DNA of 22,670 bases from a virus. The translations under genes were made by a program, and so were the position numbers. The stretch is from positions 1 through 22,670 of the IMG/VR virus record IMGVR_UViG_3300027733_000215, one strand, 5' to 3'. Below the pieces are notes generated by a model. That model had not been told where the DNA came from. It saw nothing but the letters and a program-made list of their open reading frames with translations, and did no database searches. Positions 487 through 11,775 of the stretch are shown one piece after another; within the stretch, counting starts at the first letter, position 1, and each line of letters starts with the position of its first letter.

Positions 487-2217
487 ATGGGTATCTTTGA
501 CCGCTTCCTTGGGCGTAAAGCCGTAGCCAACCAAACCGAGGCGCTTCCGCTTCCGCTAGCGCAAAGCATGGATCGTATGCTAACCGGCTTTGGCAACGGG
601 CAGCTATACTCCCGGCTCCGCAGGGCACTCCCTGGAAGTCATAAGGACTGGAGCGCAGTAGCTGGTGACCTAGGCCTGAATGGCATCGTCGCAGTGGCGA
701 TTGATTGGTATGTCAGGAACTGGAGTCAAGGCGTAGCCAAGGTATACCGACCGGTTGACTCAAGCCAAGCAGACGCACTGCCAGACCATCCAATCCTTGC
801 GCTCATCGCTGAACCGATGCCAGGCCTACCTGCTAACCTTGTATGGGGTTGGTTCCTTCAGGACTACAAGTTATTCGGTAATGCCTACCTACGGAAGATT
901 CGATCAACAATCGATGGTCAAGTGATTGGGTTGCAGTTCCTGCCGTTTGACATGGTCAGACCTGTAGGTGATGGCACTAACCCGCTGACAATGTACAAGT
1001 ATCAGACCGACGGCAGAACATTCGGTGTCAAGCTCGAGGACATGATTCATCTGCGGTACGGGAGGGAGCCTCTAGATATCCGCCTTGGGCGCTCACCGCT
1101 ACAGGCTATGCTACGTGAGATAGGCACCGACAATGTAGCCAGTTCAGCTGCTTATGGCCTCTTGGCTAATGGTGCCATGCCGTCTATCATCATCGGGCCA
1201 GATGCCAAGGACACCAGCGTAGACATCAGCATCGATGATGCGCGGCAGATAAAGCGCCAGATGCGTGAAGACCTGACCGGCGATAATGCTGGCGGCGTGG
1301 TCGTTATGAACGGCCCATACAAGATGGATAGGGTATCCCTAACGCCTAACGACTTAGCACTGGATGCCATCAGGCGTGTACCGGAGGAGCGCATCTGCTC
1401 TGCTCTTGGACTCAACCCGATGGTGCTTGGCCTTGGCTCTGGCCTTGAGCGGTCTACCTACAGCAATTACGAGAGAGCCCAACAGGCGGCATGGGAAGAT
1501 GGAATGATTCCTCTTTTCCGCGCCATTGCTGATGTCATTACCATCCACCTGCTCCCGGACTTCAGCGAGACACAACCCGGCGACTTCTTAGAGTTCGATG
1601 TGTCGCAGGTGCGCTCATTGGCTGATGACCTAAGCGCGGCAGCTGAACGTGCCGAGCGTCTTTTTAAGGCTGGAATTATTGACCGTGCGGAAGCAAAGCG
1701 CATTGCAAGCATGGAGCCAACGCCAGAAGACGAAGGCATCCTACACCCAACGGCAATATCTACCCAGAACATTGGAACAATCACACCGGCTAAGTCAATC
1801 AGCCTAAAGTACATCCCAAATCAAGGGATGCAGGACGCGGCTAGACGCGCTCTGGCATGGCATGAAGACGGTGAACCCGGCGGTACGATCATAGGCTTGA
1901 CCCGTGCAAACCAGATTGTGAACGGTGAGAAACTATCCGAAGACACAATCCTGCGGATGTACTCATTCTTCGCTCGGCATGAAGTCGATAAGAAGGCCGA
2001 AGGCTTTAGCGCTGGTGAGCCTGGTTATCCTTCACCCGGCCGCGTTGCATGGGACTTATGGGGCGGTGATGCCGGTTTTGCTTGGTCAACATCGAAGCGT
2101 GACCAGATACAAGCAGACGGTAAGAGCCTTGATGGTGACCACGTATGCACTCCGGGGGTAGTGTATAAGAGCCACCCTTTTTACGGGTATTCGCTGGAGG
2201 AAATCTCAAGCGAGTAG
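487..2217 (+). CDS. Phage portal protein (HK97 family)
   Basis: A 576-residue portal, the dodecameric ring at the capsid vertex through which DNA passes and to which the tail attaches. The start at 487 gives MGIFDRFLGRKAV, a very typical portal N-terminus, and rejects the in-frame ATG at 424, which lies inside terL. Portal hallmarks follow: LVWGWFLQDYKLFGNAYL, the DMIHLRYG region, LGRSPLQAML, the VPEERICSALGLNP clip region and RSTYSNYERAQQAAWEDGMIP. The C-terminus (about residues 455-555) is an added domain with GGTIIGLTRANQIVNG, RMYSFFARHEVDKKAEGF and PSPGRVAWDLWGGDAG, a module I recall in other phage structural proteins. No Shine-Dalgarno sequence precedes the start; a -10-like box sits there instead. 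The 3' end carries a possible -1 frameshift site into the MuF gene. Confidence 0.93.
   Translation: MGIFDRFLGRKAVANQTEALPLPLAQSMDRMLTGFGNGQLYSRLRRALPGSHKDWSAVAGDLGLNGIVAVAIDWYVRNWSQGVAKVYRPVDSSQADALPDHPILALIAEPMPGLPANLVWGWFLQDYKLFGNAYLRKIRSTIDGQVIGLQFLPFDMVRPVGDGTNPLTMYKYQTDGRTFGVKLEDMIHLRYGREPLDIRLGRSPLQAMLREIGTDNVASSAAYGLLANGAMPSIIIGPDAKDTSVDISIDDARQIKRQMREDLTGDNAGGVVVMNGPYKMDRVSLTPNDLALDAIRRVPEERICSALGLNPMVLGLGSGLERSTYSNYERAQQAAWEDGMIPLFRAIADVITIHLLPDFSETQPGDFLEFDVSQVRSLADDLSAAAERAERLFKAGIIDRAEAKRIASMEPTPEDEGILHPTAISTQNIGTITPAKSISLKYIPNQGMQDAARRALAWHEDGEPGGTIIGLTRANQIVNGEKLSEDTILRMYSFFARHEVDKKAEGFSAGEPGYPSPGRVAWDLWGGDAGFAWSTSKRDQIQADGKSLDGDHVCTPGVVYKSHPFYGYSLEEISSE
2175..2213 (+). other. 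Candidate -1 ribosomal frameshift signal, portal to MuF
   Basis: Read in the portal frame, CAC CCT TTT contains the heptamer C_CCT_TTT (2175-2181). Both tRNAs could re-pair after a one-base backward slip (CCT to CCC, TTT to TTT). After a 9-nt spacer comes a hairpin: TCGCT (2191-2195) with AGCGA (2209-2213), a G/A mismatch, then GAG with CTC and a 5-nt loop. Shifted ribosomes enter the MuF frame at 2181, which then stays open to 3287 and would give a 933-residue portal-MuF fusion. This is inference, supported by the absence of any ATG, GTG or TTG in the MuF frame before 2301. Confidence 0.4.
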
Positions 2218-2300
2218 ACAGCGGGACAGCAAGAATCTACGCGGCTGGTCAGAAGTTCCGCAACGACCTGCTGGAGCGTGAAGGCGTAGCCATTTCGAAG

Positions 2301-3287
2301 ATGCAACGGGCATACCGTGCCGCCAGCAAGGCAAGCATACGGGAACTGCAAGCACTCGAAGACCGCATAGCAGAGCGCGAAGCGCAAGGGGAACCACGAA
2401 GCGCAACGATTGAATTTATGCGGCAACGCATCATCAGTAACATTGATGAGCTAGGACAAAACCTAAAGAAGTTTAGTATCGAGGGGGCAAAGATAACCGC
2501 TGATGGACAACTCGAATCAGCCATCCTTGCGAACGAGGCAACTCAACGCCTCGTTGAAACGGCAGCGGGAAAAAAGCCAGCCAACGTTAGCGTTGGTTTG
2601 GGATGGACAAACCTACCTGACGAGACCCTCCAAACGTTTGTCGGCATGGCTGGTGATGGCAGCCCTCTGGCGGAGTTATTTGACACAATCCCTCAATTTG
2701 TAACCGATGCTATGAAACTCAGCCTCGCACAAGGCATCAGCCTTGGCGAAAGCCCTCGAACCGTGGCACGTAGACTGCAACGGGTGGCCATGGTTGGTCA
2801 GTCAAGAGCTGAGACGATAGCCCGTACTGAGATGATACGTGCCAGCCGTGAAGCACAGCGGCAACTGTATGCCGAGAACCCATCGGTTACAGGCTTCAGG
2901 CGGCAAGCTACGCAAGATGCGCGGGTATGCCTTGCTTGCTTGGCTTTGTCCGGCACACTTCAAAAGACCGATGAAATCATGCCGAGTCATCCGAACTGCC
3001 GGTGCGTGATGATACCGGAAACGCTCTCCTGGGCTGAGATAACCGGCGATTCTTCTATCCCTGATACACGGCCACAGGTGGCAACCGGTGAAGAGATACT
3101 GAAGGGGCTTACACCGCTTGAAGCTCAGCAGATACTAGGCACTGCCCGCTACAACCTTTACACTGAAGGCCTGCCGCTCAGTGACATGGCAACCGTTGTT
3201 CCTAACGCCGACTGGGGGCCTACTACACGGGTATTGCCGCTTAGAGACCTAGAGGGATACCAACCGGATCTAACAACCTACCTATGA
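2301..3287 (+). CDS. MuF / SPP1 gp7-type minor head (head morphogenesis) protein; true N-terminus unresolved
   Basis: Minor head protein acting with the portal during head assembly and DNA entry. The family signature is clear: TIARTEMIRASREAQRQL, then DARVCLACLALSG and MPSHPNCRCV, a cysteine/histidine pattern typical of SPP1 gp7/MuF proteins. The N-terminal half is charged and helical (RELQALEDRIAEREAQ). The first ATG is 2301, but the frame is open back to a TAA at 2166 and reads convincing protein before the ATG (ARIYAAGQKFRNDLLEREG, the usual gp7 N-terminal helix). No ATG, GTG or TTG exists in that stretch; only CTG codons at 2268 and 2271 do. A strong GGAGGA at 2196 lies inside the portal 3' end without a start behind it. 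The gene may therefore be read by -1 frameshift from the portal, use a rare start, or have lost its start. It ends ATGA-overlapping an ATG at 3284. Confidence 0.88.
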   Translation: MQRAYRAASKASIRELQALEDRIAEREAQGEPRSATIEFMRQRIISNIDELGQNLKKFSIEGAKITADGQLESAILANEATQRLVETAAGKKPANVSVGLGWTNLPDETLQTFVGMAGDGSPLAELFDTIPQFVTDAMKLSLAQGISLGESPRTVARRLQRVAMVGQSRAETIARTEMIRASREAQRQLYAENPSVTGFRRQATQDARVCLACLALSGTLQKTDEIMPSHPNCRCVMIPETLSWAEITGDSSIPDTRPQVATGEEILKGLTPLEAQQILGTARYNLYTEGLPLSDMATVVPNADWGPTTRVLPLRDLEGYQPDLTTYL

Positions 3288-10775: not shown

Positions 10776-11228
10776 ATGGCATTTACAAAATCATTCGGTC
10801 TGGTAGGCGAAAACTGCGTTGTCACCATCGCTTTTGGTGGCTTCCAAGATGGTAGCCCGACAGCCTTCACCGCTAACACTTACACCTGTTTGGCTAAGTC
10901 AGTGCGTACATCTACAAGCGTAGATACCGCTGATGTCAGCGCTCTTTGTGACACAACTAAGAAGATGCAGGTTACCAAAGCATCTGGCTCTATCGACATC
11001 GAGCTGCTGGTAGACGGCACACAACAGGCTGACGGTTCACCTATCTTTTTCAACAAAGAGGGTTACTATTGCCAAGTGGTTATCACTCCTGGCGCTCTTT
11101 CCGCTAAGACCTTTGTAGGCATCGTTACCGCTACTGGTATTGGCATTGCGGCAGGTGAAGCGGTTACAGAGACAGCGACAATCATGCTCGGTGCTAACGG
11201 CGTAACGACCGCATGGGCTACCGCATAA
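10776..11228 (+). CDS. Major tail (tube) protein
   Basis: A 150-residue beta-rich protein in the position of the tail tube subunit, between the tail terminator and the tail assembly chaperones. It has the expected tube style: IAFGGFQDGSPTAFTANTYT, LAKSVRTSTSVDTADVSALC, a KMQVTKASGSIDIELLVDG beta segment and ITPGALSAKTFVGIVTATG, close to the lambda gpV / TP901-1 type tube fold in strand pattern and size. A good AGGAG Shine-Dalgarno sequence lies 6 nt before the ATG, as suits a highly expressed structural gene. It ends TAATG-overlapping the chaperone gene. Named from synteny and composition rather than a strict motif. Confidence 0.8.
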   Translation: MAFTKSFGLVGENCVVTIAFGGFQDGSPTAFTANTYTCLAKSVRTSTSVDTADVSALCDTTKKMQVTKASGSIDIELLVDGTQQADGSPIFFNKEGYYCQVVITPGALSAKTFVGIVTATGIGIAAGEAVTETATIMLGANGVTTAWATA

Positions 11229-11620
11229 TGGGTATCAAAGCCATCAAGGCAGTTGCCCCTGAAGTGGAACACGGCATCCTTGAAGTTAACCTAAGCGAGT
11301 GGGCCGGTGAAGGAGCGATAGTAAAGTTCCGCCAGCCAAAAGCGGCAGACTACTTCCCAGATGCAACTGAGCTACAGAAAATCAGGATGTCTTACGCTGA
11401 GATGGCACCTAACCTTTTGGTCAACTGTCTCATAATTGGCAAGTGCTACGTCCCTGATATGGATGACCCATCGGATGCGGCTTTCATTCGTGTGCTCCTT
11501 GACCTAAGCCGCAAGAATACGCAGGCGTTCTACGCTATCTATTGGTCGTTCATTGGTAAGTATATTGATGTGTCGGTTACCAAAGAGGTAGACGAAGCAA
11601 AAAACGACTCGGCGGTGTAG
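11228..11620 (+). CDS. Tail assembly chaperone, short form (gpG-like)
   Basis: A 130-residue protein (MGIKAIKAVAPEVEHG to NDSAV). It is the first of the two tail assembly chaperones that coat the tape measure protein while the tube polymerises. It lies directly between the major tail and tape measure genes, and its 3' end carries a -1 frameshift site that produces a longer form, which is diagnostic. The start at 11228 (TAATG overlap with the major tail stop) is preferred over the ATG at 11213, which is inside the upstream gene. The protein has a beta N-terminus (GAIVKFRQPKAADYFPDA) and helical C-terminal half. No good Shine-Dalgarno sequence is present, so coupling to the tail gene is likely. 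Confidence 0.88.
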   Translation: MGIKAIKAVAPEVEHGILEVNLSEWAGEGAIVKFRQPKAADYFPDATELQKIRMSYAEMAPNLLVNCLIIGKCYVPDMDDPSDAAFIRVLLDLSRKNTQAFYAIYWSFIGKYIDVSVTKEVDEAKNDSAV

Positions 11621-11775
11621 GGTCAGTCATCGCGTACTACTGCGTGAAATACCTACACCGTCACCCTTCAGAAGTTGACCTTACGCTGGAGCAGATTTGG
11701 GAAGTTGCTGTGATTGCTCAGGATCTAGAGAAGCACGAAGTAGCCGTGATTAAAGCAACAAGGGGCATATTTTGA
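11228..11775 (+). CDS. Tail assembly chaperone, frameshifted long form (gpGT-like)
   Basis: A -1 shift on A_AAA_AAC at 11599-11605 moves ribosomes into a frame that stays open from the site to TGA 11773-11775. The product has 182 residues: 125 from the short form plus 57 new ones including VIAYYCVKYLHRHPSEVDL and EQIWEVAVIAQDLEKHEVAV. The new helical domain has no initiation codon of its own with a Shine-Dalgarno sequence and fills a gap of about 150 bases that would otherwise be non-coding in a tightly packed operon. In lambda the equivalent GT fusion recruits the tape measure and tube proteins at a low fixed ratio to G. The extension ends overlapping the TTG start of the tape measure gene (TTGA). 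Confidence 0.88.
11599..11660 (+). promoter_or_regulatory. -1 programmed frameshift signal: slippery heptamer plus stem-loop
   Basis: The heptamer A_AAA_AAC is in the correct reading phase (GCA AAA AAC). It is followed by a 7-nt spacer and a perfect 9-bp stem, CGGTGTAGG (11613-11621) with CCTACACCG (11652-11660), around a 30-nt loop. The zero-frame stop TAG (11618-11620) lies inside the stem. GTCA in the loop (11622-11625) could pair with TGAC at 11676-11679, hinting at a pseudoknot, but that pairing is short. Confidence 0.9.

Follow-up and report, generated by a model that had tools for sequence, protein, structure and literature searches.

Comparative sequence evidence for a probable programmed -1 ribosomal frameshift between the portal and MuF genes of uncultured tailed phages

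RESULTS

Genes and reading frames at the junction

The DNA described here, referred to as the window, is the whole stretch of 22,670 nucleotides that was analyzed (positions 1 to 22,670 of IMG/VR record IMGVR_UViG_3300027733_000215), and the genes and signals at the portal-MuF junction lie on its plus strand. The portal gene occupies positions 487 to 2217 in frame 1, the zero frame in what follows, and ends with a UAG at 2215-2217. Its 576-residue translation contains the Phage_portal domain of HK97-type portals (Pfam, 4e-51) and matches PHROGs 2662 and 12. The next open stretch in the list of open reading frames (2169 to 3287) uses frame 3, the -1 frame with respect to the portal gene; its Phage_Mu_F domain (Pfam, 4e-14) and its place between the portal and the protease and capsid genes identify it as an SPP1 gp7-type MuF protein. 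The gene pair is not an in-frame fusion, since the stop at 2215-2217 and the -1 frame separate the two domains. The two proteins match PHROG 2662 separately, at 74-435 and 490-709.

The MuF frame is closed on its 5' side by a TAA at 2166-2168, and its first ATG, GTG, or TTG is the ATG at 2301-2303, a candidate additional internal start that is kept in close relatives. The absence of any such codon between the stop at 2166 and the ATG at 2301 had been noticed in a first-pass annotation made from the sequence alone and is confirmed here. Read from 2181, after a -1 slip, MuF would comprise 368 residues (2181 to 3287) that match Phage_Mu_F (4e-14), PHROG 115, and other families, and relatives found with tblastn align with it from residue 1. 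The predicted fusion would have 565 + 368 = 933 residues, with the junction ...VYKSHPF-LRVFAGG..., and the peptide stretch LRVFAGGNLKRVDSGTARIYAAGQKFR would be expected in it; portal residues 1-565, ending ...VYKSHPF, are common to the plain portal protein and the fusion. AlphaFold prediction for MuF with 20 sequences was of low confidence (pLDDT 51), and a sequence search of the PDB gave only weak, unrelated matches.

The C-terminal domain of the portal protein (window 1813-2100, residues 443-537, RMYSFFARHEVDKK...WDLWGGD) matches PHROG 2859, the function of which is not known. Its DNA also matches part of Synechococcus phage S-CBS3 and of Roseobacter phage CRP-406 where a capsid protein is annotated; the domain is shared and probably mobile. 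A search of GTDB genomes with the portal protein recovered this shared C-terminal domain only, and a search of the same genomes, covering prophages and hosts, with MuF found no relative.

On the 3' side of MuF, the next gene could start at ATG 3314, directly after a promoter-like motif, instead of at ATG 3284. The motif, GTGGGATA(C/G)TG, recurs at window positions 471, 3298, 5694, 10557, and 19220 and is also present in L170, the distant relative described below. In three cases it sits about 6 nt 5' of an ATG (487, 3314, and 5711), and it looks like an extended -10 promoter that would give nearly leaderless mRNAs. Ordinary Shine-Dalgarno (SD) sequences precede several genes of this phage.

A slippery heptamer that does not vary

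Near its end the portal frame reads CAC CCT TTT TAC, which places the heptamer C_CCU_UUU (2175-2181) in the phase X_XXY_YYZ, so that a -1 slip gives CCC TTT TTA and leads straight into the MuF frame, as the first-pass annotation had proposed. Over its full length the portal gene has only one other in-phase heptamer of the X_XXY_YYZ type, at 1815. C_CCU_UUU falls in the motif class H_HH.U_UU.Y, which is efficient in -1 frameshifting in E. coli (PMC4066793).

A tblastn search of IMG/VR, with a query that began directly behind the heptamer, gave 317 relatives, and nearly all of the best 80 align from that first residue. The sequence CACCCTTTTTACGG is present in all 77 of the contigs that cover the junction among the best 80 of the 317; the other 3 end at a contig edge. 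Each search took the 80 nearest loci, and the outer limit of the family may lie beyond them. In all, more than 130 distinct IMG/VR junctions carry the heptamer unchanged, and no relative has an alternative.

A codon alignment of 117 members gives a mean synonymous diversity of 0.449 for the 241 conserved portal codons that lie 5' of 2140, with 2% of these codons below 0.02; at CAC, CCT, TTT, and TAC the value is zero. The members of this alignment were gathered with the junction 14-mer, and therefore scans without that condition are the proper test of heptamer conservation. We scanned 2.9 million contigs for the pattern VVYKxHPFYG, degenerate at every synonymous position, which avoids conditioning on the heptamer. 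The scan recovered at least 120 stretches and, with the earlier loci, at least 123 distinct sites, all of which read CAC CCT TTT TAC GG. Patterns that forced CCA, CCC, CCG, or TTC into the heptamer had no match in the 2.9 million contigs, and one that forced CAT into its context matched a single, unrelated contig outside the family. At 2181, exchanging T and C would alter neither protein (portal Phe, MuF Leu), yet such a change was never seen. The heptamer is thus in phase and is kept beyond the needs of the encoded proteins, and the invariance of the junction in more than 130 distinct relatives is far beyond chance. A search of annotated phages with the junction DNA gave chance matches only.

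Hairpins on both sides of the heptamer

A hairpin of 8 bp, a G.A mismatch, and 3 further bp (2188-2216), a putative stimulator, follows the heptamer after the spacer UACGGG (2182-2187). The first-pass annotation had placed a hairpin 9 nt downstream; the hairpin is there, with a spacing of 6 nt in the window and of 9 nt in most relatives. Its minimum free energy in the window is -14.5 kcal/mol (z = -4.63), as good as which none of 200 shuffled sequences was, and its 3' arm contains the portal stop UAG. Nearly all of forty 36-nt variants fold as hairpins that begin 6 to 9 nt after the heptamer. Their forms differ, and include UAUUCGCU...AGCGAGUA (the window type), GAGCUG-N5-CAGCUC, GAGAUG-N5-CAUCUC, and, in L170, CCCGG-UUUAA-CCGGG. 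The downstream structure is conserved, within the 5 to 9 nt from the heptamer expected of a bacterial -1 signal, and is weak in a few relatives, such as L089 and L103 (predicted -2.5 kcal/mol). Among 24 distinct variants, one pair of this hairpin changes from CG to AU on both sides (7 cells; 0/500 shuffles), and shifting the partner abolishes the pairing. We saw no consensus for a pseudoknot or long-range partner past the hairpin itself, and no Rfam family matched within 2000-2500.

A second hairpin, absent from the first-pass annotation, lies 9 nt 5' of the heptamer at 2146-2165 (UGCACUCC-GGG-GG(U)AGUGUA). All 8 of its pairs are kept in all 24 distinct variants (100% of cells paired), while the pair 2151/2160 varies among UA, CG, and GC. 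The codons TGC, CCG, GGG, and GTG at this site, which only the portal frame reads, show zero synonymous variation, which we attribute to the hairpin. On a tree of the downstream MuF DNA, the two sides changed together in 8/8 independent pairs for the upstream hairpin and 6/6 for the downstream one, counts that stem from one fully covarying pair per hairpin and that block recombination of the junction could inflate. Partly inside the upstream hairpin lies GGGGG (2154-2158), an SD-like candidate by its sequence. SD-like stimulators have been reported over a range of 6 to 17 nt (PMC4066793), and this element fits the GGNGG class at the far edge of that range.

Evidence that MuF is translated from upstream of its first ATG

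The first-pass annotation had described the MuF frame as protein-like before its first ATG, and the substitution pattern bears this out. Between the portal stop and ATG 2301 (MuF codons at 2217-2300), pN/pS in the MuF frame is 0.16 across 120 distinct in-register junctions, compared to 1.67 and 1.91 in the other frames, and in the stretch before 2268 alone it is 0.18. These codons are under purifying selection at the protein level and are thus translated, by an evolutionary criterion. Where the genes overlap, over 36 nt, both frames have a ratio near 1, the pattern expected of DNA under dual coding and RNA structure.

This -1 reading frame, translated by that criterion, has no start of its own. 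Across 78 junctions, that of the window among them, the first 90 nt behind the heptamer contain no ATG, GTG, or TTG in the MuF frame, and in 42 of the 78 a TAA 9 nt before the heptamer closes the frame. Hence the relatives that cover the junction keep both the heptamer and the missing start, the two features for which the first-pass annotation had asked for an alignment of homologues; the single exception to the missing start, in the wider set, is an in-frame GTG at +21 in L115.

The strongest single case for a MuF without its own start is the distant relative L170, judged by its sequence. Its MuF is 51% identical to that of the window, and the heptamer is kept. A stop 6 nt 5' of the heptamer closes its MuF frame, and the first ATG, GTG, or TTG comes at +243 nt, leaving 81 codons without a canonical start. 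A CTG replaces ATG 2301, and the hairpin at the equivalent place is unrelated in sequence and holds the portal stop in its loop.

Two other candidates were considered and rejected. The GGAGG at 2196-2200, as ribosome-binding site of a noncanonical start, is mostly GGAGA, GGAAA, or similar in relatives, with no NTG after it. In Synechococcus phage Sc-Yong805-2 (L192, 2242-2288), portal and MuF-like reading frames share 47 nt, but the MuF-like one begins with an ATG, and so we do not regard it as the same device.

DISCUSSION

Proposed mechanism

The heptamer is conserved at the nucleotide level, the MuF N terminus is translated by the evolutionary criterion, and canonical starts are absent. We consider it very probable that portal and MuF are linked by programmed -1 ribosomal frameshifting. 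The comparative data strongly support the interpretation that the first-pass annotation had offered. The majority of ribosomes would end at UAG 2215-2217 and yield the 576-residue portal protein. A fraction would pause on C_CCU_UUU while the downstream hairpin (2188-2216) sits where the mRNA enters the ribosome; the upstream hairpin and its GGGGG element (2146-2165), whose stimulating role is presumed, would probably assist. The Pro and Phe tRNAs would then re-pair on CCC and UUU, and decoding would resume at UUA 2181 in the MuF frame to give the 933-residue portal-MuF fusion, with slippage in the host, and its rate, being inferred.

Such a fusion would presumably join the portal ring and carry MuF into the procapsid. 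In-frame portal-MuF fusions, which the first-pass annotation had mentioned in other phages, do occur in related phages (see below), and therefore the fusion should be structurally acceptable. Given these fusions and the entry of a few copies of SPP1 gp7 by way of the portal, the best reading of its role is that the slippage ratio would set the number of MuF-bearing subunits per portal ring, a model that we hold to be somewhat more probable than its negation. We propose more tentatively, at a little below even confidence, that a three-part signal, consisting of the 5' hairpin as an integral stimulator, C_CCU_UUU, and the 3' hairpin with its stop, meters the MuF domains in each ring and so produces portals in which both plain and MuF-bearing subunits are present.

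Alternative routes to a MuF protein

The fusion might be accompanied by free MuF made from ATG 2301. This ATG is kept, and a second constrained stretch, 2274-2300, lies just 5' of it; only one stretch of MuF is more constrained at synonymous sites, and 2274-2300 could serve an internal start. It offers no good SD at the usual spacing, though, and L170 lacks this ATG, so that we regard such a dual route as unlikely, if still worth bearing in mind.

Alternatively, MuF could be solely a free protein, started internally at ATG 2301 or at a noncanonical codon near the portal stop, with frameshifting absent or irrelevant. The ATG is present in 120 of 120 in-register close relatives, which had been aligned on it, synonymous diversity at 2274-2300 is low, and MuF is a separate gene in some related phages. 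Against this, the codons at 2217-2300 are selected as MuF protein, so the protein reaches upstream of 2301, the nearest SD-like sequence (AAGG) is about 16 nt from the ATG, and L170 has a CTG in its place. Nor is there an NTG near the portal stop, and the CTG codons at 2268/2271, a start at which would have spoken against the frameshift according to the first-pass annotation, can be excluded, since they vary to CTT, CTA, TTA, or TTG in relatives. With the invariant heptamer and the hairpins also left unexplained, a purely free MuF is very improbable, and we retain the frameshift as the source of its N terminus.

Slippage of RNA polymerase, rather than of the ribosome, on the C3T5 run CCCTTTTT is a far-fetched source of the fusion: the run consists of two homopolymers, and a suitable change in its length would likewise bring MuF into frame, but selection for an in-phase C_CCU_UUU and hairpins at 6 to 9 nt with a compensatory change would go unexplained. 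Five T residues are also fewer than in the runs known for bacterial transcriptional slippage, which speaks against this route. An assembly error or a decayed gene pair, conceivable while the first-pass annotation drew on one contig only, is refuted by the relatives: over 130 distinct junctions, drawn from many metagenomes, agree in their frame relation, keep the MuF frame open, and show purifying selection. The probability of such an error or decay is negligible.

Relation to known systems

We found no portal-to-MuF frameshift described in open-access papers, the literature that was searched. Judging from the sequences, portal and MuF are probably a new gene pair for the known -1 frameshift mechanism, in uncultured tailed phages whose group is widespread, and would join the few frameshifts that are known to be conserved among phages. 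With standard annotation, the MuF starts of this group would be placed at least 40 codons late, here at ATG 2301. The upstream hairpin, if active, would broaden the known stimulators of bacterial -1 frameshifting.

The identical heptamer, C_CCU_UUU, followed by structured RNA is found at the NS1' site of West Nile virus (PMC11507841), an unrelated virus with unrelated proteins, in which the ribosome is eukaryotic and the structure is a pseudoknot, compared to a hairpin here. In phages, frameshifts are known for tail chaperones, capsid proteins, and tail proteins (PMC5009743). The lambda-type tail chaperone genes G/GT, whose frameshift is conserved in tailed phages, share with the present case a -1 slip on an X_XXY_YYZ sequence near the end of a structural-module gene, which fuses the next, start-less reading frame at a set ratio (PMC5009743). 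However, gpG and gpGT are tail chaperones that are absent from the mature virion, whereas the protein shared by the two products here, the portal, is a subunit of a virion ring. The window itself has what is likely a classical tail-chaperone G/GT -1 frameshift at 11213-11775, directly 5' of the tape-measure gene, with A_AAA_AAC at 11599-11605 and a -1 reading frame that extends to 11775.

In Lactobacillus phage A2, in the T3/T7 capsid, in Listeria phage PSA, and in SPP1 gp17.1*, as would be the case here, a frameshift gives some virion subunits a C-terminal domain (PMC5009743, PMC6316719). In those examples the extension is on a major capsid or tail protein, whereas here a whole conserved head protein, MuF, would be placed on the portal. 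The same two domains in the same order occur in the in-frame portal-MuF fusions, with a portal part about 30% identical to that of the window; PHROG 2662 covers both domains, and such fusions are found in Sinorhizobium phage Aussie and Microcystis phage Mwe-Yong1, as well as in Microbacterium phage clusters EA3, EA5, EA8, and EB (PMC7302621). Those phages have MuF on every portal subunit, whereas here a stop lies between the genes and the fusion would come from slipped ribosomes only. In SPP1, a small number of gp7 (MuF) copies reach the procapsid by binding the portal protein gp6 (PMC6316719). Every phage with a portal ring and MuF must reconcile the symmetry of the one with the low copy number of the other; SPP1 does so with a separate protein that binds the portal, whereas the covalent fusion predicted here would be set by recoding, fixing the ratio of portal to MuF through translation alone.
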